Source: a virus
IMG/VR virus record: IMGVR_UViG_3300021085_000105
Coordinates: 1-35,143 of that record
Length of the DNA stretch: 35,143 nucleotides
Strand: one strand, 5' to 3'
In this document: positions 12,905-30,180 of the stretch, piece after piece
Layout of the letters: every line of letters starts with the position of its first letter
Numbering within the stretch: the stretch's first letter is position 1
Translations under genes and position numbers: made by a program
The notes under the pieces: generated by a model
Told to the model about the DNA's origin: nothing
What the model saw: only the letters and a program-made list of their open reading frames with translations
The model's database searches: none

Positions 12905-15742
12905 ATGAAGCTAAAAAGTCTTAGTCAAAAAGACCGATATGGTAATATGTTCTCTGTTGAGTTCTTTGAACCATCTATCCCATCAATGATGCTTATTCCA
13001 GAGATGGAGCGAGGCAATGGGTATAACGGCGCTGACACAAGCGACCACCCAGGAGACCCTAAAGGCACTGATACAGTACCTGCATGGTTAACCCCTGGAG
13101 AGAATGTTGTCAATGCAGAGGCCTCTAGGATTCCTGGCAATCAAGAAATGATTGATGAGATGAACGATCAAGGCCGTGCCATACAACAGTCACAAGGTGG
13201 ACCTATTCCTACTTATGAAGCTGATGGTGGTATAATACCGCCTATGTATGCGGCAGAAGGTACGCTTCCCCTTGGGTTACGTCAAAATAATCCTGGGAAT
13301 ATTAGACCAGGAGCTGATTTTATTGGTGAAAGCGGTGCTAACGATGGCTATGCTGTATTTGATTCTGAAGAAGAAGGTCTTAGAGCCATACAAAAATTAC
13401 TCGGTACTTATGGTAGTGAGCATAATATAAACACTTTAGAAGGTTTTGCAAATAGATATGCACCGCCCTCAGACAACAATCCAACAAGTAGTTATGTAGA
13501 TTATTTATCTCAGAAAACAGGAATTGCTCCCGATGAAGAAATAAATTTAGCTGATAGAGGCGCAGAGCTTATTCCTGCTATTGTTGGATTTGAGCAAGGT
13601 CAAATGCCTTATACTGAAGATCAAATTAGAATGGCTATTGAAATGGCTGGGACAGATGATCCAGAAGCAGTTAAAGCTATCTTAGATGGAGTGCCTCCTA
13701 CTGATACTGGATTGATGTCAGCGGAAGCTAGTACTGTAGTGCCTAAGTCAGAGGATGAAGTTCCTCCTTCAGACGAAGGTAACTGGTATGATTTCTTATT
13801 TCAAACAAGAGAAGAACGAATAGCTAATAACTTAGCTGAACGTGAAAAGTTAAAAGAAACAGATCCCGAAAGATATGCTCGCTTAGAAGAAAAAGATGCA
13901 ATCTTAGCCGCTAATAAGGTAGAAAAGGCTAGACCCCCTATTCGTAGTGGGCTAGGCGCAGAACCTTACTATGAAAATTCAGTTGCAAAATATAAAAATT
14001 CAAAAGCGCAACAAGAAGCTGACGCTAAAGTTGAAGAGTTATCAGTACCCCCTCGTCTTAATGATGGAACAATTCCTGGAATGGATGAGAGTAGCAGTTT
14101 AGCTAAACAAGGCGAGCGTATGCGTAATGATCCAGTAGAAAATGCAGAAGAACGAGTAGAAATAACTGAAGATTATATTCGGAAATATATTGATGCAGGA
14201 TTAGTTCCGCCTGAGTCTGTTGTTAACGCAAATAAATCAGCCAAAACAGAGTTAGAAAAAGTTACAGAAGAAGAAAAATTACTTCAACAAGAGAATATAG
14301 CTAAGGCAGACGCTGAAGCTAAAGCAGAGAAAGAACGTTTAGATTCGGCGCGCGACGCACTTGGTTTACCTCCTACAGATGTTCCTATTCCTGAGTTAGA
14401 CGGTGTTGGTATCCCTGAAGTATCAACAGAAAATGAATCTAAAGAAACTCAAGCTGAAAAGAATGCGGCTATGACTGAAGCAATGAAAGGCTTTAGGGGT
14501 AAAACATTTAGTCAACCTTCAGCAGATGAACTAAAAGAAGTAGAAAGGCTTGGGAGTAGCCCTCAAGGTAAAGGCTTCGGTACTGAAGTTGCAGGTTACT
14601 TTAAGCAAATGTTTAAAGACTTATTTAGCGGTCCTGAACTTGCTCGTATGGCAGTTATGTATGCTGGTTCTCGTCTTATGGGCTACGATCATGGTGGCTC
14701 ATTACAATACTCTATGACGCAATACATTGATCGTGTTGATTCAGACGTTGAAGCTCGTAAAAAGTTTGTCACTAGCAAAGATGCATTAGAAGATTACACA
14801 GGCAAGTCATTACAAGCTTATAGAGACTCAGGTAATCTAGAAGACCTAGTAGCTAAAGGCAAAACATTATCTATGACAAAGCCAGTAGGTAATTCTTACT
14901 TGCCTGGAATTGGTAAAGTACAACGCTTTGAAGGCTCAGACGGTAATGAATACGTAGAATACCAAGGTAAAATGACATCTGTAAATAGTCTTGCTGGTTT
15001 CTTAGAGCCATGGGATGAAAGTGTCCATGGCAGAGAAGCAAGAAAAGGTAACTTTGAGTCTGCATTTACAAGCGCTACCGATACTGCAAACTCTGAAAGA
15101 GGGTTAAGGGCGGGAACACGTAATAAAGTTGATTACGATGATCGCGTTGCTATTGATGCTTTTAAACTAGGCGGAGAAGCTGAAAGTAGATTTAGGGAAA
15201 TTCTTAATCAAAACGGTGTATCAATTAATGATGTCCCTGAGTTAGAAATTAGCGTAAACAATGCTATTACTAAGTTTGTAAATGATACTATTGATTACAA
15301 AAAATCAGGTGGTAAAGGTATTGAACCAAAAAGCATCAGAGCGTATATCAATAATGAAACAAGATCAGTCTTAACAGGTGTTCCTCAATACGCTATGAAT
15401 GGTACTTCTGACACTAACATGAATCAGCTAGACACTATAATTAAAAAAGAAGTCAGAGATGAAAACGGTAAACGACTTGGTCCTAAAGATAGAGGCTATG
15501 CCAAAGCATATGAAGAGGCGTGGTCAGCTACTTGGGCCGCTTATCAATTAAGAGATGAGTATCCTGATCTTACTAAGAGCAATGACAACTTTGAAGAGCT
15601 AGCTGTTAAAAAGAATGAGCGAAAAGGAGATGCTAACAAATGGACAGCCTTTACTTTATGGGCTTCTAGAACTCCTGGCGAAGAAGTTCAAGCAATTATT
15701 GAGCAAGCAATATTAGACGATAACTTAGATAAGTTATTCTAA
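12905..15742 (+). CDS. large internal virion protein with muralytic-like domain
   Basis: This 945-aa protein has an N-terminal segment (about residues 54-77, GTDTVPAWLTPGENVVNAEA) of a kind common in phage tape-measure and ejection proteins. Residues about 120-235 then match a domain marked by LRQNNPGNIR, a DGYAVFDSEEEGLRA helix, and FANRYAPPSDNNPTSSYVDY. In other phages this domain is associated with peptidoglycan-active structural proteins. The rest is charged, mostly helical and coiled-coil-rich (KAEKERLDSARDALGLPP). The inferred role is local wall digestion and channel formation during DNA entry, as for T7 gp16, but with a different domain. It ends just before the terminator at 15748. Confidence 0.65.
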   Translation: MKLKSLSQKDRYGNMFSVEFFEPSIPSMMLIPEMERGNGYNGADTSDHPGDPKGTDTVPAWLTPGENVVNAEASRIPGNQEMIDEMNDQGRAIQQSQGGPIPTYEADGGIIPPMYAAEGTLPLGLRQNNPGNIRPGADFIGESGANDGYAVFDSEEEGLRAIQKLLGTYGSEHNINTLEGFANRYAPPSDNNPTSSYVDYLSQKTGIAPDEEINLADRGAELIPAIVGFEQGQMPYTEDQIRMAIEMAGTDDPEAVKAILDGVPPTDTGLMSAEASTVVPKSEDEVPPSDEGNWYDFLFQTREERIANNLAEREKLKETDPERYARLEEKDAILAANKVEKARPPIRSGLGAEPYYENSVAKYKNSKAQQEADAKVEELSVPPRLNDGTIPGMDESSSLAKQGERMRNDPVENAEERVEITEDYIRKYIDAGLVPPESVVNANKSAKTELEKVTEEEKLLQQENIAKADAEAKAEKERLDSARDALGLPPTDVPIPELDGVGIPEVSTENESKETQAEKNAAMTEAMKGFRGKTFSQPSADELKEVERLGSSPQGKGFGTEVAGYFKQMFKDLFSGPELARMAVMYAGSRLMGYDHGGSLQYSMTQYIDRVDSDVEARKKFVTSKDALEDYTGKSLQAYRDSGNLEDLVAKGKTLSMTKPVGNSYLPGIGKVQRFEGSDGNEYVEYQGKMTSVNSLAGFLEPWDESVHGREARKGNFESAFTSATDTANSERGLRAGTRNKVDYDDRVAIDAFKLGGEAESRFREILNQNGVSINDVPELEISVNNAITKFVNDTIDYKKSGGKGIEPKSIRAYINNETRSVLTGVPQYAMNGTSDTNMNQLDTIIKKEVRDENGKRLGPKDRGYAKAYEEAWSATWAAYQLRDEYPDLTKSNDNFEELAVKKNERKGDANKWTAFTLWASRTPGEEVQAIIEQAILDDNLDKLF

Positions 15743-15820: not shown

Positions 15821-18800
15821 ATGGCAGAAAATTTTATAGACGAGGAAGGTAATTCTCGTCGATGGATAGACGCCGATACTATTGAAGGTAGTGATGGCAA
15901 AGATCTTCGACTTCGTGGTTTTAATGCTCCTGAAGTAAGCAAAATAACTAATTTAGATTTCGAAAGAGAAGATGGTAAATTACGTTTCTTACAAGGGCAA
16001 CTTGGCGGTAGGGAAACTACTGAAGCTGTAGCAAGAATTGCAGAAGAAGGCGGCTACAATAGGATCATAGATGAAGGCAACGATGATTTTTATGGACGTA
16101 AGTTAGTAAGCATTCAAAATAAAGAAGGAGGCGACTTAACTAATGCGTTATACAAGTCAGGCGCTGTCTCAGAAAATTTATTTACTGATGCAGAAGGTAT
16201 ACGAGCCGCACAGCAAGGTAGATTACAAGCGCAGTTAAAAGGTAAACGTGATTATCAAAATATTATTCAAGAAGAATTAGGTGAAGTTCAAAGTGTACCT
16301 ATTCTATTTAAAGAATCTGCGGATAACGAAAAAGAATATTTAGATTCTGTTATTCAAGTAGTTGCTCAACAAAAAGGCTACGACTTAACCACAGAAGAAG
16401 ATTACAAAGCAGCTTATAATACTGCAATAGAAGGTAACTATGATACTAGAAGTTTACCTTTTAACGCCATTGATTTTTCTCAAGGCGATAGGAATATGTC
16501 AGGCGTTGCGTACAATCAATTTACAGAGTCTTGGAACACAGGCTGGCAAGGGATGGCCACAGCTTTAGCTGGATTTGCAGAGCTTGCTGGCGTTGGATTA
16601 GGGTCTGAAGACTTAGCGAACTGGGGCGCTGATGAAGTTCAGCTTGCAAAAGAAGATTTAGCTAACGCTCCTATACTTAAAAACTTAGACTTCAGAGATA
16701 TAGATGATGTATGGGATGGCTGGCAATATTTTACTAACAACATGGCTATGTCAGCACCTTATTTAATTACACTTTCTGCTGGTCATATACTTTCTCCTGT
16801 AACATTCGGTGCATCTATACCAATAGCTTATGGCTCAATGGTAGGTGTACACTCAGGGAACGTATGGAATGATATTGAAGGTCCAAAAGGACGCGCTGAA
16901 GCGGCTGGTTCTTTAGTTGCAGGTACTGCAATGGCAGTTATGGATAGGCTAGGTATGCAAGGTATTCTTGCTCCGTCTAAACTGTTAACTAAATCAGGTA
17001 GGCTTCAAGTAGCTAAAGAGCTTAAACGATTAAACCCAGGAATGACTTCAGCACAAGCACTAAAATTAATCGGTAAAGAAAGCAAATCAATGATTAAAGG
17101 TGCTATCCAAGGCATGGGTAACTTTGCTTCGGATCACATTAATCGTGGTAGCTTAGTTAAAAATGTTTTAAAGGGTGCAGGTCGAGGCGGTATTACTGAA
17201 GCTGTAACCGAAGCCGCGCAAGAAGGCACAGGTTATATTGCTTCAAAACAAATGTCTGAAGGTGGGCTTGAGCAAAACTTTAATCCTAATGAATTCAGTA
17301 ATCTATTAGCGTCTGCCGCAGTAGCAGGTGGTGCATTAGGTAGTAGCTTTGGTGCCGCTGGTGCAAGCATAGAAGCTGGTGATCGATACGCTATGAGCAA
17401 AGGGCTTATGCTAGGTCGTATAGATAAATTAAATCCATATGACAGAATATCTCAAGAGCTAGGTAAACAAGGCTCCGTGTATGATATAACTAGAGACTTA
17501 AAAAGAAAAACTCTTAAACGAAAAGGCGGAAGACTAGGCGCAGACTACGCTACCAAAGGCAAAACACAAAGAGGCTCGTTCTGGGATAAAATTAAAAATC
17601 CAACCAAGTACTTACCTGAGCTTTATCGTGCCGCCGCTACTACTGCTTTTCGCCCTGAATTATTAAGGCGTTCAGCGTCGGCTAGAAAGCTATACGCTTT
17701 AGTTGGACAACCGCTTGGTCGTCTTTACTCTGGACGTGATGTGGGTGCGCAAGAACAAAAGCATCGTGCTGATTTACTTAATAAATTAAATGCTCAACGT
17801 ATTTTTCAACGCTTTGGTATGCCTGATAGAGTGTCTAGCTCTAACCGCATTTCTGATATGATACGTAGGTTTGTAGCGGCAAAAGGTGATCGTGATGCTT
17901 TAATTAATGACCAAGAAGTAATGGAAAATTATGATTCTATTTTAACTACTGTGAATGAGTTGCAGAGTTTTATGGATGCAGATTATGAGTTAAGAAATAC
18001 TACCTATACCGGACAAGGCGAAGATCGTGTTAATTTATTATTTGAAAATTGGACGGATGCTAAAGGCTGGGATTGGAAAAAAGTCAGAGATAATCGTGAA
18101 GCTTGGTTTGCTTGGATGCGTAATGTAAAAAATTCAAGTGGAAAACAAGCTTACTCTGAGCCTGAAATTGAAGAAATGTACAATAAGATTTCTAATAATG
18201 AAGATGTTACCGACTTCTCTATTGTAGAAGGTGTTGCACATATTCCAGGAACAATCAAAGATAATTCTACAAAGAGCTTATCAGACCTTCCTGGATACGA
18301 TCAATTTGCTAACACAGATATCTTACAAAACTTAATTAATAGAGCAGATCAAACAGCTAAATACACAGCTTACACAGAATACTTTGGTGAGGGCGGTAAG
18401 TATCTAGATCAGTTATACGCTGAAATGAGAGATGAAGGTCTTACTGATGATGAAATTGCAGAGGTAGCTTATCATACTAAGAGTATTATTGATGCAGGCA
18501 CAGGTAACTATAAGCCAATTAAGAATAGACAGATAGCAAATCTACAGCGTGCAGGTGCATTCTATGCATCAACAGTAGGTCTTCCGCTAGCCGCATTTAG
18601 TTCTATCCCTGAATTTATCATGATACTTTGGCAGGGACGTGGTTCTGCTGATGTAAAACGTGGAATTAATTCTGCAACAGGAGAACTTGTAGAGATATTT
18701 AAAGGTATTGTTAATATGAAGCAGAACCCTGCTTTAAAAACACAGCCTAATTTACCTATCTACAGACAATCAGTACAAGACCTTATTAGCGCAGGATTAT

Positions 18801-19905: not shown

Positions 19906-22900
19906 GTGGTTAATATTAACATAAATAGAAGTGCTAATTATGATTTTAGAAATCGTAATAGACAAAAGGTAATGCGAGACCAGCAAGAAGATATTGCACG
20001 GGCCACAGAAGATACCCAAGCAACTATGGCGGCGGCATTAGCTGATAAACAAGCAACTAAAAGTGCATTAGATCAGCAACTTCCTGTTGAACAATTACAG
20101 TCTCGGATGGCACAACCATCTGAGGCTATTCAACCCGAAGGGTTTGTAGGTACTGCACCTGAAAATATGGCACCTGCTAATCTTCAGGCGTACACAGAAG
20201 TAGCACCTACCGAAGAGCAGATAGCAGAAGCTACACAAGATTCGATGTATGAGTATGTACAGCAAGGCTCTCGCCCTGACCCTGCGGTAGACCGTGTAAG
20301 AGAGCTTACGCCTACTCAGAAAGGCTCAAGGTTTATAGGTACGCTTGAAGAACAAGCAATGCCTCGCGGTGTCATTTCAGATGAAGAAGTAGGCGCATTT
20401 GCACAAGCAGTTGAACCTGCAGTTGATGACGCCCTAATATCTGAGGGATTGCATGACAACAGCGTAATGAAGTTTTCTGCAATGATGGATGGTGCATCAA
20501 ATATGTTTGATGTTACAAGTAATAAATTTAATATGCTTGGAACTTCGATTGATTTAAATAACGTAGACCAAGAAATTTTATCTTCAGATCCTCAAAGGAT
20601 TATATTTGAAAATTCAGATGCGCTTAATTTTATTATGCGTAATGATACTAAACTTAATTTGTCTACCGATCCTACTGATCCTAACTCGCCAATTCGAAAG
20701 GAAGCAGGACGTGCTGCAATCATGTCTACTATTTTAGCTTTATCTAATAAAATGGCATTGCAAAGTTCTGAAGTTGATGAAGAAGCAAATAAACAACAAC
20801 ATTCTAATGGACTTAACAGAAATATTTTAGGTCCAGAAATTGGACGTACAATGGAACGCTTTTTGTTTCCTACTCAAATGGATAACCCAGCCGACTTATT
20901 TAAAGGTGTATCCGAAGGCTATGGTTATAACTCACGCATGACACCTGAAGAGCAAAGTTTACTTGGACAAGCAATTCTTCAAGGTTTTGCTGACTCAAAA
21001 ATATTTGACTTTATACAAGCTAAAGAAGTTAAAGATAACGAAGGTAAAAAGACAATAACCTTTGTTACTACTCGTTCAGGCGATAAGAAGATGAGAGCAT
21101 TAAGAAAAGGTATTCGAAGTGCTTTAGGCATTGCTCAAAGCAAAGATAGACCTGTATCTTTAACTAACACAAAGCAAGGTATGTTGCGAGGTGAAGGTGC
21201 AAGTACACAAAAGAACATTACAGCTGCACCTGAAAAGAACTTCCTAACTCAAGAAGTTCAAGATGCAATTAATGCGTTAAGCAGTGTACAACATACTGTA
21301 CCTAGCCACGCAACAACACTATATGCAGGTGTTTTATCTGGCGGGATTAAAAATCGTAAAGGCGTATTTGCTAGAATAGCTAAACAAGACGAAAAATACC
21401 TTAATAATAAAAGACAATCATTGTATAATGATTTTCTTTATAAGTACTCTAAAGGGGTAATTAAAAGCCCAGAAGAAATTGGAGGCGATGTTAACGAATT
21501 CCTTATGCAAGGACAAAGCCAAGAAGAAGCAATTAAATCTGCTTTCTTTGACGTTGCAAATAAACAAGCAGTATCAATTCAAAGAGATCATTTGGTAGAA
21601 AGAAGTGATACACTTAAAGATGGCGTTAATCGTTCTAACGTACCTTTTTATTATGGGTATAGTGTAATTAATAACTCATCACGTATGATGATTACTAATG
21701 ACGAACTTAATTATCAGTCAGATAAATTAGCTAGGTTTTTAGTAGCAGGTGGAATGCCTTCTTTATTTTCTATTTCTCCAAAAGGAGGGCTAGCGGCATT
21801 AGACGTAGCAATCAAAGAATCTAAATCAGCTAAGCCTCTTAAAGGCCAGTCTGGTTTCTTTAGAGTTTTAGCTAGGTCATTAATATTAGATGCTGATAAA
21901 TTGTCTTCAACTGATCAACTAATCGCATTAAAAAATGAGCTATCACAACCTGACAGCGCTATTCGAAAACATGCTATTGAAGTTTATAATTACAGAGAAC
22001 AGAATAAAGCATATAATGAAGCGGCAAAAGTAGCATTACAAAACAATGCTAAAGTTCCACAACCAGAACCGTTTATTCCTAGCGAAGGGTTAGAAAACTT
22101 TTTAAGCCAACACGAAGAAAACGATACGTTTTATTTTGCATTAGATGCTCTGCATGAGTTAGGTGCTTACGATGTCGTTGCTAAACAAGCAAGGGCAAAC
22201 AATAAACCAATGAAGTTTGCTTCTAGAGTTAAAGCAGAGGTAGATGGTAATTCTAATGGAGCTGTTATCCAAGGCTACCAGATGGGAGTTAAAAATATTC
22301 TTGAGAGAGGAGGAGTTCTTTATCAAGGAGAAGGAGATACCGAAGGAGATCTTCGAGAGCAAGTATTCAGACTTATGGCTGACAATGACAAGCTAGAGAA
22401 AGATGAATACTGGGAAGAAATCTTTACAGTTATTGGTAATGATCCCCGAAAGATTAAAAAGTTAATGAAAGTTCCAATTATGACTTCTATTTACGGTAAA
22501 GACCCTGCATTCCATCAAGACACTGCAAAAAAGTTTATTGACGATAACCCAAAAATGTTTGAAGGCTTAATGGCTAATGGTATTCTTAGCTACGAAGGTA
22601 CAATTAAACGTCTTGGAGAACACTTAGAAAAAGGATTATTGCTTGGGTTAGGCAATGCACTTGAACATTCAATACTAGTAAAACGTGCAGGACGTATCTT
22701 TAATTTTGCAGATGAAATGATGAATATTGTAGGCGCTAATGGATTTATGGTTCAAGCAGGTGGAATTGAATACTTACCTGTAGATCCACGAATTGCATTC
22801 CCTCAAGGGGGTCAGGCGTTCGCTCCTTATGGCGATAACACAGCACGAGTTAAATATGGTCAAGCTTTAAAAGCAGAGCGTGGTTTTAAGGGACGTCAAG

Positions 22901-23694
22901 TTGCAGACATTCAAGTAACTAAAGCAATAGCTTCTCCTTCTGCTAAAGCTAAACGCAGATATGTAGGTGAAGGGGAATACAGTAACCCAGATTTAGGTAG
23001 TAAGCTACGTAATCAAGCGGCAGTTAACTTAACTCAAAACATTGACGCAACAGTTGCACAGCGTACAGTAACTAGAGTCATCGGGGGAGCTGTTACACCT
23101 ACTGTAATGCAAGTTTATGATGCGTTTATGGGTGATGCTAACTCGTTTGATACGTTATCAAAAACAGCTAATGATGTATTTGAAGAAGTCAATAGCGATG
23201 ACCCAAAGAAAGGGTTTAATATGTTAAAGGCTGAATATAAAGCATATACAGATTTAATTACACAAATGCGTGATCGTGTTGCTAATGCAAAAGTTTCTGG
23301 AGACACCTTTAATATTGGTGTTAATGGTAAATACAAAATTTTAAGCGATTTGTTATCAGTAGGGCCAAACGGCGGTACTCGTATGGGTGCTATTATGAAT
23401 CGTGATATGCCTGATGGTGATCTTAAAAGCGAGAATCCTAAAGAAAGACGTAGAGCAAAAGCAAAAGATGATGCTATGAAAGCTATTAACGACATTCGTG
23501 CAGAAGCAATTAAGTATGGTTATTTTCCTGGGAAGGAAAACGTACCACTTACTGCAGATCAATTTGGAAGTTTATTCTTTAAGATAGTAAACGTTATGAA
23601 CGTAGATGCTGAGTTTAAAGAAATGATTACCGAAGTTGATGCTCGGAGAAAAGAAATTAGTAAAGAGCGTAAGCGTAAAGAACAATACAGTTAA
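19906..23694 (+). CDS. candidate virion-packaged single-subunit RNA polymerase (N4 vRNAP-like, minimal size)
   Basis: The GTG start at 19906 follows GGAGA. In this 1262-aa protein, residues 1 to about 150 are Gln/Ala-rich and virion-like. Then come the hallmarks of T7/N4-type RNA polymerases in order. A T/DxxGR-like element lies at FYYGYSVINNSSRMMI (R593). Motif A is KAEVDGNSNGAVIQG (D780). Motif B is KKLMKVPIMTSIYG (K851, K855, Y863), matching T7 R627, K631 and Y639 in spacing. AAVNLTQNIDATVAQ matches T7 APNFVHSQDGSHL, and motif C is MQVYDAFMGD (D1072). Both metal-binding Asp residues are present. A-to-C spacing is 292 residues (275 in T7). Being the last gene of the ejection cluster, it is probably packaged and injected to transcribe early genes. 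Confidence 0.82.
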   Translation: MVNININRSANYDFRNRNRQKVMRDQQEDIARATEDTQATMAAALADKQATKSALDQQLPVEQLQSRMAQPSEAIQPEGFVGTAPENMAPANLQAYTEVAPTEEQIAEATQDSMYEYVQQGSRPDPAVDRVRELTPTQKGSRFIGTLEEQAMPRGVISDEEVGAFAQAVEPAVDDALISEGLHDNSVMKFSAMMDGASNMFDVTSNKFNMLGTSIDLNNVDQEILSSDPQRIIFENSDALNFIMRNDTKLNLSTDPTDPNSPIRKEAGRAAIMSTILALSNKMALQSSEVDEEANKQQHSNGLNRNILGPEIGRTMERFLFPTQMDNPADLFKGVSEGYGYNSRMTPEEQSLLGQAILQGFADSKIFDFIQAKEVKDNEGKKTITFVTTRSGDKKMRALRKGIRSALGIAQSKDRPVSLTNTKQGMLRGEGASTQKNITAAPEKNFLTQEVQDAINALSSVQHTVPSHATTLYAGVLSGGIKNRKGVFARIAKQDEKYLNNKRQSLYNDFLYKYSKGVIKSPEEIGGDVNEFLMQGQSQEEAIKSAFFDVANKQAVSIQRDHLVERSDTLKDGVNRSNVPFYYGYSVINNSSRMMITNDELNYQSDKLARFLVAGGMPSLFSISPKGGLAALDVAIKESKSAKPLKGQSGFFRVLARSLILDADKLSSTDQLIALKNELSQPDSAIRKHAIEVYNYREQNKAYNEAAKVALQNNAKVPQPEPFIPSEGLENFLSQHEENDTFYFALDALHELGAYDVVAKQARANNKPMKFASRVKAEVDGNSNGAVIQGYQMGVKNILERGGVLYQGEGDTEGDLREQVFRLMADNDKLEKDEYWEEIFTVIGNDPRKIKKLMKVPIMTSIYGKDPAFHQDTAKKFIDDNPKMFEGLMANGILSYEGTIKRLGEHLEKGLLLGLGNALEHSILVKRAGRIFNFADEMMNIVGANGFMVQAGGIEYLPVDPRIAFPQGGQAFAPYGDNTARVKYGQALKAERGFKGRQVADIQVTKAIASPSAKAKRRYVGEGEYSNPDLGSKLRNQAAVNLTQNIDATVAQRTVTRVIGGAVTPTVMQVYDAFMGDANSFDTLSKTANDVFEEVNSDDPKKGFNMLKAEYKAYTDLITQMRDRVANAKVSGDTFNIGVNGKYKILSDLLSVGPNGGTRMGAIMNRDMPDGDLKSENPKERRRAKAKDDAMKAINDIRAEAIKYGYFPGKENVPLTADQFGSLFFKIVNVMNVDAEFKEMITEVDARRKEISKERKRKEQYS

Positions 23695-24008: not shown

Positions 24009-26126
24009 CTAACAGAAGAAGTAATTGGAATCAAGTACGCTTTTAATATTTAACGTACCGATTGTAGGCACAATGCCTTGATAACCCTTACCGAAAGGAA
24101 TACCATTATAGAAGTTATCAGTGTCATACATAGACACAAACTTCTCTCTAGTAGATACCATCAGAGACTCTACGCTACCTGCATGAGTACTGAAGGAGTC
24201 GTGAACAGCACCGAAGTCACCATCCCAGTCAGCTACAGTAAGAGCCATGTGACTGGCATCCATACTATGAACAAAGTTAGGGCTGATGCCACACATAAAG
24301 CCTCGTCTATCAGGTATGTCTGTCTTCTCTCTGATGACATGCTTAAAGCGTATCTCGCCTGTCGGAGTATTAAACCCGTAGCAATCTACTTTAACGGGCC
24401 TAGTGCGATAGCACTCGTATACTACTGGGAAGCCTGATGGGGTCACCCATTCAATCCCTCTCCCTCTATCTGTACCATAGTCTCTGGCCCAGTTAGTGAT
24501 CTCTTGGTCTGCTAGGCGCTGTAAGTACCTCATAGTATCCAGGGGACCAGGGCATACATCTTGTATAGCTCTGATTACTTGGCTACTGAGTTCGTCACAG
24601 TCCCATGTAGAGATATTGTACTGTGTAGTGAAGCCAAACTGATAGCAATCACTGTACATAGACTCAGACATTTTCTTTTGACCACAGCTATAAGCTCTCG
24701 TCATGGCACCACGCTTAGCGATACCCTTACGGATATGCTTCATTGGTATCTGTCTTTCTTCAAACCATTCGGGCATACGCTGAGTGAGTCGCTTAGCTAC
24801 CTGCACATAGAAATCATTCTGTACATCGGTAGGTACAAGACCAACAAGCTGTCCTGTCTTATCGTCCTTAGACATAGCGCCGAGGTGTTGCCACCCGTTG
24901 TTAGCACCGTCGATAGGAATAGGTAACTGCGTGTAGAAGTCGCCTTCACACTTAGAATACTTATACCACTCAACACAACAAGCAAGGAATGAAATAGATT
25001 TCTCTGCGTCTTCTGCAAAGATATGCATCTCGCCTAGCTCTATTATAGTATCGATGTTCTGCTGAGTCCACATAGCTCTGTCTTCAAGGGTCATCTTGTC
25101 TACTGAGATAGTGTCGAGCTCTTCTTGCTCAAGTACACTACGATAGTCTGTAGTAACCCAATCAGGTATCTCATCAATGTTATACGATTGATTAAAGCAA
25201 CAAGCAGTATGTACACCTAACCAGAAGCTTGCTTCTTGGTCAAACAGTTTACCGTCGGCAAAGAGCAACTGACCACGCGCAATATCCGAGCCTTGGAAGT
25301 TAAAGAATGGCTCTGAGTAATACAGCCTACCGCGATAGTCTGCATCAAGATAGAAGCTAAAGTCTTTGTGCAGCCACTTCGCTGCAATTGCCATTACTTC
25401 TTTTACCTCACGGTTCTTAGAGGCTTGGCGTTGATATAGCTTTTCATTCTCTTTAGCGTCTTCACCAGTAAACTCTTCAGTATTAATGAAGGTATCCCAT
25501 TGTTCTAAGATAGCGTCGTGTACGTCAGTGTTAACTAACCAACGAGTAGCTTGTAGCTTATCTATAGCTTTAACGAAGGGTGCTTCTTTATGTTTAATAA
25601 ATCTGTACTCTTTAGATTTATCCCATGTCTTGATAACACTTCTACCGTTACCTTGGATTAAGCTAGTTATTGGTTCAATTAATTCTGCGCTCATACAGAC
25701 AGTTCTACCTGCAATGGCTTCCATTTCACCCCACTTAGTTGTAGCATGAATAGTTACTGGCTTACGGCTCTTCATATGTCCTACCTGTATAGTGAGGTAT
25801 CCACACATGACAAAGCCTTCAATGACAAGGTCACCTACTCTAACATGGTCTCTAAAGTTAACGTTATTACTATCCCAACCTTCAACAATATATTTACCAA
25901 TTGCCATTGAAGCCTGAGTAATAGGCGTTTCACCTTCAGTCTTGCTACGCTTAAAACAGCGTTGCATAGTCTTTCTAGCGAATGTTACCATATCTTCTAT
26001 TAAGAAGTCTAGCATATCAACACCGTCGGTGTCAATCATTCGCATCAGTTGTAAGTTACGTCTAGGCTTGACTCCTAAGTCTTCACCCCTAATCTTCGTC
26101 AGTAGATAGTCCTTCACATCTTCCAT
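24009..26126 (-). CDS. T7-like DNA-dependent RNA polymerase
   Basis: This is a single-subunit phage RNA polymerase of 705 aa. All motifs are intact: DYRGRLYY (D263, R267), motif A PIPIDGANNGWQHLGAM (D406), motif B KGIAKRGAMTRAYS (K467, K471, Y479), SPNFVHSMDASHM, and motif C AVHDSFSTHAG (H642, D643). The C-terminus ends in YFFC, comparable to the aromatic foot of T7 RNAP (FAFA). T7 RNAP has 883 aa; here about 158 residues are missing before the DYRGR motif, so the N-terminal promoter-contacting domain must be reduced or different. It lies near the distal end of the - block and would act on phage promoters in the late region. Its start lies inside the upstream gene. Confidence 0.95.
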   Translation of the reverse strand: MEDVKDYLLTKIRGEDLGVKPRRNLQLMRMIDTDGVDMLDFLIEDMVTFARKTMQRCFKRSKTEGETPITQASMAIGKYIVEGWDSNNVNFRDHVRVGDLVIEGFVMCGYLTIQVGHMKSRKPVTIHATTKWGEMEAIAGRTVCMSAELIEPITSLIQGNGRSVIKTWDKSKEYRFIKHKEAPFVKAIDKLQATRWLVNTDVHDAILEQWDTFINTEEFTGEDAKENEKLYQRQASKNREVKEVMAIAAKWLHKDFSFYLDADYRGRLYYSEPFFNFQGSDIARGQLLFADGKLFDQEASFWLGVHTACCFNQSYNIDEIPDWVTTDYRSVLEQEELDTISVDKMTLEDRAMWTQQNIDTIIELGEMHIFAEDAEKSISFLACCVEWYKYSKCEGDFYTQLPIPIDGANNGWQHLGAMSKDDKTGQLVGLVPTDVQNDFYVQVAKRLTQRMPEWFEERQIPMKHIRKGIAKRGAMTRAYSCGQKKMSESMYSDCYQFGFTTQYNISTWDCDELSSQVIRAIQDVCPGPLDTMRYLQRLADQEITNWARDYGTDRGRGIEWVTPSGFPVVYECYRTRPVKVDCYGFNTPTGEIRFKHVIREKTDIPDRRGFMCGISPNFVHSMDASHMALTVADWDGDFGAVHDSFSTHAGSVESLMVSTREKFVSMYDTDNFYNGIPFGKGYQGIVPTIGTLNIKSVLDSNYFFC

Positions 26127-28683: not shown

Positions 28684-28825
28684 GGCGTGTTACCTTTCTC
28701 TTATGCCTTGCTTTATTAGAGCGGTCATCTCTCTCTGCTTTCTGTTGTTTGTTATTAAACAGCACAAAGAAGTCATCATCGTCTATACGATCGTCATCCT
28801 CAAACGGATCATTTTTCTGTATCAT
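28652..28825 (-). CDS. small protein with acidic N-terminus and basic C-terminus
   Basis: This 57-aa frame occupies the space between the GIY-YIG gene and the primase-helicase, overlapping them by 17 and 32 bases. The first twenty residues are acidic (NDPFEDDDRIDDDDFF) and the remainder is very basic (RSNKARHKRKVTRHAK). The bipolar charge could mimic DNA or bridge proteins. It is not recognised. Confidence 0.6.
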   Translation of the reverse strand: MIQKNDPFEDDDRIDDDDFFVLFNNKQQKAERDDRSNKARHKRKVTRHAKEERLYGE

Positions 28826-29492
28826 TTTTTATTCCATTGTAACTATTAACAAAAGCTTTAGTCAGCATCCATTTCTCGCTACCTAAAGTTTTATTATAGT
28901 ATACCTTTTCTTGGTTGTCATCAAGTTCAGTCAACACATTAAGATGTATCTGCCATTTTAACTCTAAGTAATTGAGAGCAGACTTATCAGGTGCTTCCTC
29001 TAATATCTGATACTTAAAGTGTTCAGGGTTATCTGAAACTTTCTGTGCAGTATCAACACCAGAGGATGCATAAGTTTTCCAGTTAGATTGTCTAACTCGT
29101 TTACCTTTACTGTAATTCCAGTAAGATTTCTTACCGACATAGCGTTTGTCTGTCTCTTTCTCAGTGATAAGATAGATAAAACCTTCCATGTCATAAGGTT
29201 GTAGCTCAAGCCTTGTATCCCATTGACCGTGTGCAAGAGCATCTGAGCCTGTAGCTTGCCATGCCTTCTGGTCAAAGGCAACACACACAGTGCCACCACG
29301 AGGGTTGACCCATACAGTCAAGTCACCCTCCCAGCCTTTCTTTAGCTTGAGTTTAGTTCTGAGGTTAGACTTACATCTAATCTCTCCGTGTTCCTCAGTA
29401 GTGATACCGACCCATCCTCCTGTATCTACTGTAGATACTTCGGTGATGATAACATCTTCGTATCGCTGATGGTCTTCTACATTGGTAGTCAT
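28809..29492 (-). CDS. GIY-YIG endonuclease-like protein with an extra N-terminal domain
   Basis: The ATG at 29492 has GAGGTG five bases before it and is preferred over a TTG four codons upstream. Residues 1 to about 100 form a beta-rich region of unknown type (WEGDLTVWVNPRGGTVCVAF). From residue 104 a GIY-YIG nuclease follows: GFIYLITEKETDKRYVGKK (Y107, Y118, G120), then WKTYASSG and YLELKWQ with the likely metal-binding E177. No intron or splice signal is seen around it, so a free-standing nuclease for host DNA breakdown, or a stand-in for T7 endonuclease I, is more likely than a homing enzyme. That is inference. Confidence 0.75.
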   Translation of the reverse strand: MTTNVEDHQRYEDVIITEVSTVDTGGWVGITTEEHGEIRCKSNLRTKLKLKKGWEGDLTVWVNPRGGTVCVAFDQKAWQATGSDALAHGQWDTRLELQPYDMEGFIYLITEKETDKRYVGKKSYWNYSKGKRVRQSNWKTYASSGVDTAQKVSDNPEHFKYQILEEAPDKSALNYLELKWQIHLNVLTELDDNQEKVYYNKTLGSEKWMLTKAFVNSYNGIKNDTEK

Positions 29493-29493
29493 G

Positions 29494-30180
29494 TTACACC
29501 TCAAAGAAGTCAGTTGGATTACGTAGTATGTGAATACCGTTAGCCGTTTCCAGTAACTTCTCCTTCCATTTTACAATGCCGTATTGAGCACGCCATGCGG
29601 CTAATACTCTATGTTTACGGCGTTTCATAGGGACACCCGCAAGCATCTTCTCTGCTTTCTTTGGTCCAATCTTAGGCAACCCAGGCAAATTATCTGTAGG
29701 ATCACCTTTAAGCATTTGAAGCCAATACAATAAGTCTGCCTTGTCTTCATCGATATCGTAGAATTCATTACGCTTTGGGTTGTAATGATGACCTACAATA
29801 CAGTCTAAGTCTTTATCGATATGTACTACAGTGAAGTCAATCTCTTCTTTAGCGCATTCAATTGCTTTGATGCGTACCATATCATCGGCTTCCATACCAT
29901 CAGAAGGTATAGCCAAGCCATCCTCAATAATACGTTGCATCAAAGGTCTGAATAGACTGGCATCTTTATGCGGGTCTTTACGATTAGCCTTATACTGTGG
30001 ACACAACTCATAACGAAAATTATCTTTGCCTCCACAATAAATTACTTGCTCATCAGACCATACAGGGTCTATCCAATTCTTTTGTAAGATAGCCTTGTAG
30101 TTATCTAATGCGCTGTCTACAGTTTCTTGTTGCCAAGCCGCTTGATATATACAGCTATCAGCATCTATAATTGCTAACAT
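29494..30180 (-). CDS. 5'-3' exonuclease (T7 gp6-like, flap-nuclease family)
   Basis: This 228-aa protein has the conserved metal-binding and DNA-binding parts of the FEN/T7 gp6 family: IIDADS (D6, D8), YKANR, GMEADDMV (E97, D99, D100), HIDKDLDC (D122, D124) and the helix-hairpin-helix-like GDPTDNLPGLPKIGPKKAEKM. It would remove RNA primers and degrade host DNA. AAAGGA precedes the start. At the 3' end FFEV precedes the stop, and GAGGTG there doubles as the ribosome-binding site for the next gene. Confidence 0.92.
   Translation of the reverse strand: MLAIIDADSCIYQAAWQQETVDSALDNYKAILQKNWIDPVWSDEQVIYCGGKDNFRYELCPQYKANRKDPHKDASLFRPLMQRIIEDGLAIPSDGMEADDMVRIKAIECAKEEIDFTVVHIDKDLDCIVGHHYNPKRNEFYDIDEDKADLLYWLQMLKGDPTDNLPGLPKIGPKKAEKMLAGVPMKRRKHRVLAAWRAQYGIVKWKEKLLETANGIHILRNPTDFFEV

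Follow-up and report, generated by a model that had tools for sequence, protein, structure and literature searches.

Gene context of a large putative ejection protein

The window analyzed here comprises positions 1 to 35,143 of the 35,143-base virus record IMGVR_UViG_3300021085_000105, which derives from a marine podophage and is probably a fragment rather than a whole genome. Within it, an open reading frame for a 1360-aa protein lies between genes for a 945-aa virion protein and a 1262-aa polymerase-like protein (Table 1). The 1360-aa frame opens with an ATG, ahead of which stands a strong Shine-Dalgarno site (TAGGAGGTTAAC). As this site, TAGGAGGTTAACATG, precedes the ATG, the N-terminal domain should be translated as part of the long protein, in which about 1200 further residues follow it. 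Among PHROGs, the 1360-aa protein matches two virion structural protein families, phrog_6958 (E 5.1e-16) and phrog_30152 (E 3.9e-6), the matches falling on the remainder outside the N-terminal domain. The last 561 residues are modeled as almost wholly helical, at low confidence (model of residues 800-1360, pLDDT 42).

Table 1 Coordinates of the putative ejection cassette and of the features within it
Feature	Position	Strand	Basis
Upstream virion protein, 945 aa, with transglycosylase/endolysin-like domain at residues about 114-255	12905..15742	+	PHROGs
Putative ejected internal virion protein, 1360 aa	15821..19903	+	phrog_6958, phrog_30152; same architecture in relatives
SNase-like domain, residues 1-140	15821..16240	+	Profile of bacterial SNases, Foldseek/VIA matches, invariant columns
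Asn35, aligned with the Ca2+ ligand Asp40 of SNase	15923..15925	+	Asn in phage relatives outside the CRP-7 clade
N4-type virion RNA polymerase-like protein, 1262 aa	19906..23694	+	tblastn, motifs A/B/C

The 945-aa protein matches phrog_873 (E 2.2e-31), phrog_2276 (E 4.9e-21) and phrog_7182, a tail injection transglycosylase family (E 8.6e-7). Downstream, the packaged polymerase that an earlier note on this DNA had proposed was borne out as N4-type: tblastn aligned residues 534-811 of the 1262-aa protein with virion RNA polymerases of N4-like phages, that of Salmonella phage FSL SP-058 among them (E 4e-6), and the single-subunit polymerase motifs A (DGNSNG, residue 780, nt 22243), B (KVPIMTSIYG, residue 855, nt 22468) and C (VYDAF, residue 1070, nt 23113) are intact, their residues being invariant in 11 relatives. 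A profile search of PDB sequences with this protein found no polymerase, and PFAM and NCBIfam profiles gave no match to it. At 1262 aa, about a third of the length of N4 gp50, this N4-type polymerase sits in a non-Schitoviridae podophage relative. In Roseobacter phage CRP-7, gp33 (L009 8766-12470) occupies the same place and retains YGK and HDA motif remnants; a profile comparison of gp33 with the polymerase-like protein of the window gave no significant match.

With a transglycosylase upstream, an N4-type polymerase downstream, virion-structural PHROG matches and a position in the late cassette, an ejection cassette is the best reading of the locus. Judged from this context, the 1360-aa protein is most likely a podoviral ejection protein that enters the host with the phage DNA, and the ejection proposed in the earlier note gains support from the virion-structural PHROGs and the cassette position.

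Two further genes lie on the opposite strand. One, for a second single-subunit RNA polymerase (24009-26126, 705 aa, phrog_414, E 2.5e-102), converges on the gene of the packaged polymerase. The other, a 231-aa frame (28809-29504) flanked by the primase/helicase and exonuclease genes, matches two homing-endonuclease PHROGs and one labeled NAD synthetase (E 8.3e-23), and likely encodes a homing endonuclease.

Residues 1-140 form a staphylococcal nuclease-like domain

General profile libraries give little signal for the N-terminal domain. The Pfam staphylococcal nuclease (SNase) model alone reaches 13.5 bits (E 0.1), below its cut-off of 21 bits, sequence searches of the PDB gave signals too weak to be decisive, NCBIfam returned no match, and in PHROGs only the uncharacterised family phrog_18798 was recovered (E 6.7e-4). 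By comparison with bacterial SNases the relationship becomes clear. A profile of 47 bacterial sequences, assembled without any phage sequence, scores the 1360-aa protein at 27.5 bits (E 1.4e-10 for one sequence). When the domain was shuffled 2000 times, the highest score against the same profile was 12.3 bits. The profile matches 18 of 18 phage proteins, the weaker ones at 12-22 bits. Reciprocally, a phage profile recovers every one of the 70 bacterial SNases sampled, each with a single-sequence E <= 1e-3 and the strongest at 1.6e-13. These 70 (L047-L076, L107-L146) combine the 30 best-scoring proteins with 40 from lower ranks, out of 150 genomes sampled.

An AlphaFold2 model of the domain, built from 17 sequences, has a mean pLDDT of 75, with residues 38-60 poor (below 50). 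Foldseek places SNase crystal structures at the top of its PDB matches (E 2.7e-4, probability 1.00). VIA aligns 101 residues with SNase structures at 3.3 A and a Z of 8.3, a value that would be middling by itself; all the VIA matches listed are SNases, and the matched range, residues 13-137, covers nearly the entire domain. The order of strands and helices in the model fits the SNase/OB fold. The profile scores, the model matches and the conserved active-site residues described below are three independent lines that settle the assignment: on profile and model evidence, residues 1-140 are a genuine SNase domain of the PF00565 type. Both the fold that the earlier note had proposed and its comparison of a predicted structure with SNase thus came out positive.

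The active site is retained and Asn35 is an ordinary variant

In the translated frame the residues singled out by the earlier note are correctly numbered, with R30 at nt 15908, N35 at nt 15923, E38 at nt 15932 and R93 at nt 16097. R30, E38 and R93 correspond to the catalytic Arg35, Glu43 and Arg87 of SNase. In the profile alignment D17, D19, T20 and D89 pair with SNase D19, the metal ligand D21, T22 and D83, so that the expected active-site set reads D17, D19, T20, R30, N35, E38, K41, D89 and R93. D17, D19, R30, E38, K41, D89 and R93 are invariant in all 17 sequences compared. Five catalytic residues (D17, D19, R30, E38, R93) fall within the 12 invariant columns of the domain (hypergeometric p about 1e-6). 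The retention of the Arg/Glu/Arg triad claimed earlier therefore holds throughout the family, with no loss among the 17 sequences.

The domain departs from the canonical S. aureus enzyme at position 40, where Asn35 stands in place of the Ca2+ ligand Asp. Throughout the phage family this position is Asn, save in the CRP-7 clade, which has Asp, and there is no sign of decay. A genome scan with the phage alignment retrieved chromosomal SNases of Pseudomonas and Neptuniibacter that carry the motif GLNAPE, and those of the Pseudomonas type score far above the Pfam threshold (Pfam SNase E 4.7e-16). Of the 70 bacterial SNases, 38 carry Asp at position 40 and the other 32 carry Asn, a rough proportion since the survey covers one phylum, that of Pseudomonas and Neptuniibacter, and is skewed to high scorers. 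D21, R35, E43 and R87 are intact in every one of them, whichever residue occupies position 40. By this comparison, Asn at position 40 is clearly an ordinary, non-defining state of the SNase family. The suggestion that an Asp to Asn change tunes the enzyme or shuts it off inside the capsid consequently finds no support, Asn being common in bacterial SNases and Asn and Asp segregating by clade in the phages. As a candidate off-switch Asn35 was rejected, because the 32 bacterial SNases with Asn keep the other catalytic residues.

The same data bear on whether the domain is an enzyme at all. Its OB-fold could have lost catalysis and serve solely to bind DNA or protein, with Asn in place of Asp as the trace of that loss, as the sub-threshold Pfam score and the Asn itself might be taken to indicate. 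The invariance of D19, R30, E38 and R93 in 17 relatives argues against this reading, as do the Asn-bearing bacterial SNases with intact D21, R35, E43 and R87, and we regard it as very unlikely.

Conservation, selection and modularity of the domain

The same architecture is shared by 17 other distinct relatives, which come from IMG/VR and include gp34 of CRP-7, a cultured Roseobacter podophage. These proteins are 1310-1418 aa long and begin with the domain, which keeps this place in all distinct relatives whose N-terminus is complete. Compared with the window protein, distant relatives show 25-29% identity in the domain and 19-21% in the remainder, whereas in close relatives the domain is the less conserved part (73% versus 90%). 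Estimates of dN/dS are 0.11-0.32 for the domain and 0.04-0.20 for the remainder, and in several pairs the rate in the domain is higher, by a factor of up to about three. As estimated from these comparisons, the domain is under purifying selection that is looser than in the remainder. A search of a cultured-phage collection with the domain matched CRP-7 alone, one further match being at chance level. A 1043-aa protein of Pseudomonas phage JB8 is homologous to the C-terminal part and carries no SNase signal, so that the SNase domain is a separable, added module.

These observations also bear on a possible role of the domain on the phage's own DNA, either in packaging and head completion or during entry, for instance by trimming the leading end or introducing a nick there, which would allow the packaged polymerase to begin. 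Virion nucleases required for assembly are known, T4 gp4 being one example (as cited in PMC7824862), and the protein adjoins the packaged polymerase. SNases, however, are non-specific and fit poorly with a precise cut, and JB8 shares the C-terminal part yet does without the domain. We consider a role on phage DNA unlikely.

A proposed model for delivery of the putative nuclease

Our preferred reading, to which we give about an even chance, is that the domain is an active, metal-dependent SNase delivered with the genome and most likely directed against host nucleic acid; its activity, target, packaging and ejection are each predicted. In this model, the N-terminal 140 residues would constitute a catalytically competent SNase-family phosphodiesterase, dependent on metal and mounted on a large helical podoviral ejection protein. 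The 1360-aa protein would be synthesized late and packaged into the virion, from which it, the transglycosylase protein and the N4-type RNA polymerase would be ejected together. The nuclease domain would refold in the cell envelope or the cytoplasm, where it would cut nucleic acid, with host DNA or RNA as the likeliest substrate, ahead of any phage gene expression. An active, delivered nuclease is favored by homology, by the fold, by an active site that stays invariant despite about 20% identity elsewhere, and by purifying selection. The fixed place of the domain in relatives, the cassette context, its nature as a separable module and the normality of Asn at position 40 point the same way.

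Several points weigh against this delivered nuclease. An SNase active in the capsid would, in seawater rich in Ca2+, endanger the packaged genome. The genome might be spared if the protein crosses the tail unfolded, or if the capsid leaves the enzyme too little room to act. The more specific scheme, in which the virion carries a nuclease, already folded or able to fold, next to its own genome, some device (ejection-coupled refolding, metal supply or compartment) keeps it harmless to that genome, and it is ejected to destroy host DNA before phage genes are expressed, is tentative, and we put it well short of even. The faster evolution of the domain in several pairs and the low-confidence model region around residues 38-60 are further counterpoints.

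Alternatively, the domain may belong to the entry apparatus and act at the cell surface or in the periplasm, degrading nucleic acid that is extracellular or bound to the envelope, or else the DNA of competing phages (superinfection exclusion). Ca2+ is supplied both by the periplasm and by seawater, and its availability there would suit such a role. The N-terminal domain of T7 gp16 ends up in the periplasm and remains there (PMC8954989); by analogy, a periplasmic N-terminus would keep the domain off the host chromosome, which also counts against delivery to host DNA. In prophage BtI1, an SNase-related domain replaces the N-terminal transglycosylase of the relative 0305phi8-36 (PMC2147016), whereas the transglycosylase here is on a separate protein. 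We judge a periplasmic or surface role improbable.

If the delivered domain is active, these abundant marine podophages bring a DNase or RNase together with an RNA polymerase into the first moment of infection. Two questions would then be open to experiment: how a non-specific nuclease can be stored next to the genome of a phage, and whether host nucleic acid can start to be taken over without phage gene expression.

Relation to known systems

SNase domains are already known in phages as stand-alone genes. For an SNase domain on a phage virion protein there is a single precedent in print, found in prophage BtI1. Its homologue of gp147, the tail hub of 0305phi8-36, likewise carries an N-terminal SNase-related domain, whose use the authors called obscure (PMC2147016). 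That system differs in being Gram-positive and in involving a myovirus-like tail hub rather than a podoviral ejection cassette, with no polymerase neighbor reported (PMC2147016). An entry of similar length is A0A6J5NQ80 (BFVD/UniProt), a 1342-aa protein of an uncultured Caudovirales phage whose SNase-like domain is matched by our model (Foldseek probability 0.98); its label, "Staphylococcal nuclease (SNase-like), OB-fold", is an automatic annotation only. As the earlier cases comprise stand-alone genes, the BtI1 tail hub and this automatically annotated protein, what is new is an SNase that is carried by a predicted podoviral ejection protein, has an N4-type polymerase as its neighbor and is retained throughout an entire phage group.

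The components have separate parallels. Bacterial SNases of the Pseudomonas type (L039, motif VRMIGLNAPETAKKG) have D17, D19, R30, N35, A36, E38, K41, D89 and R93 in common with the domain, but are short (about 270 aa), chromosomally encoded and free-standing. N4-type ejection cassettes (gp50 vRNAP, gp51, gp52; PMC12633501) likewise pair a packaged single-subunit-type RNA polymerase with ejected proteins, although the polymerase has about 3500 residues there and 1262 here; the word nuclease is absent from that paper. Large virion-injected proteins bearing effector enzyme domains are also found among phage polyvalent proteins (PMC5512222), where the main text of the catalogue does not mention SNase, and a review of ejection proteins (PMC8954989) does not mention nucleases. 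Among cultured phages, CRP-7 gp34 (QBQ72827.1, MK613349; PMC6918029), of 1368 aa, has the same relative position, an N-terminal SNase domain and the catalytic residues, and differs in its Asp at position 40 and in the remainder, where identity is about 20%. The paper describing CRP-7 does not mention a nuclease (PMC6918029), and gp34 was deposited as a hypothetical protein. The present analysis therefore provides an annotation for this hypothetical protein of a cultured phage.
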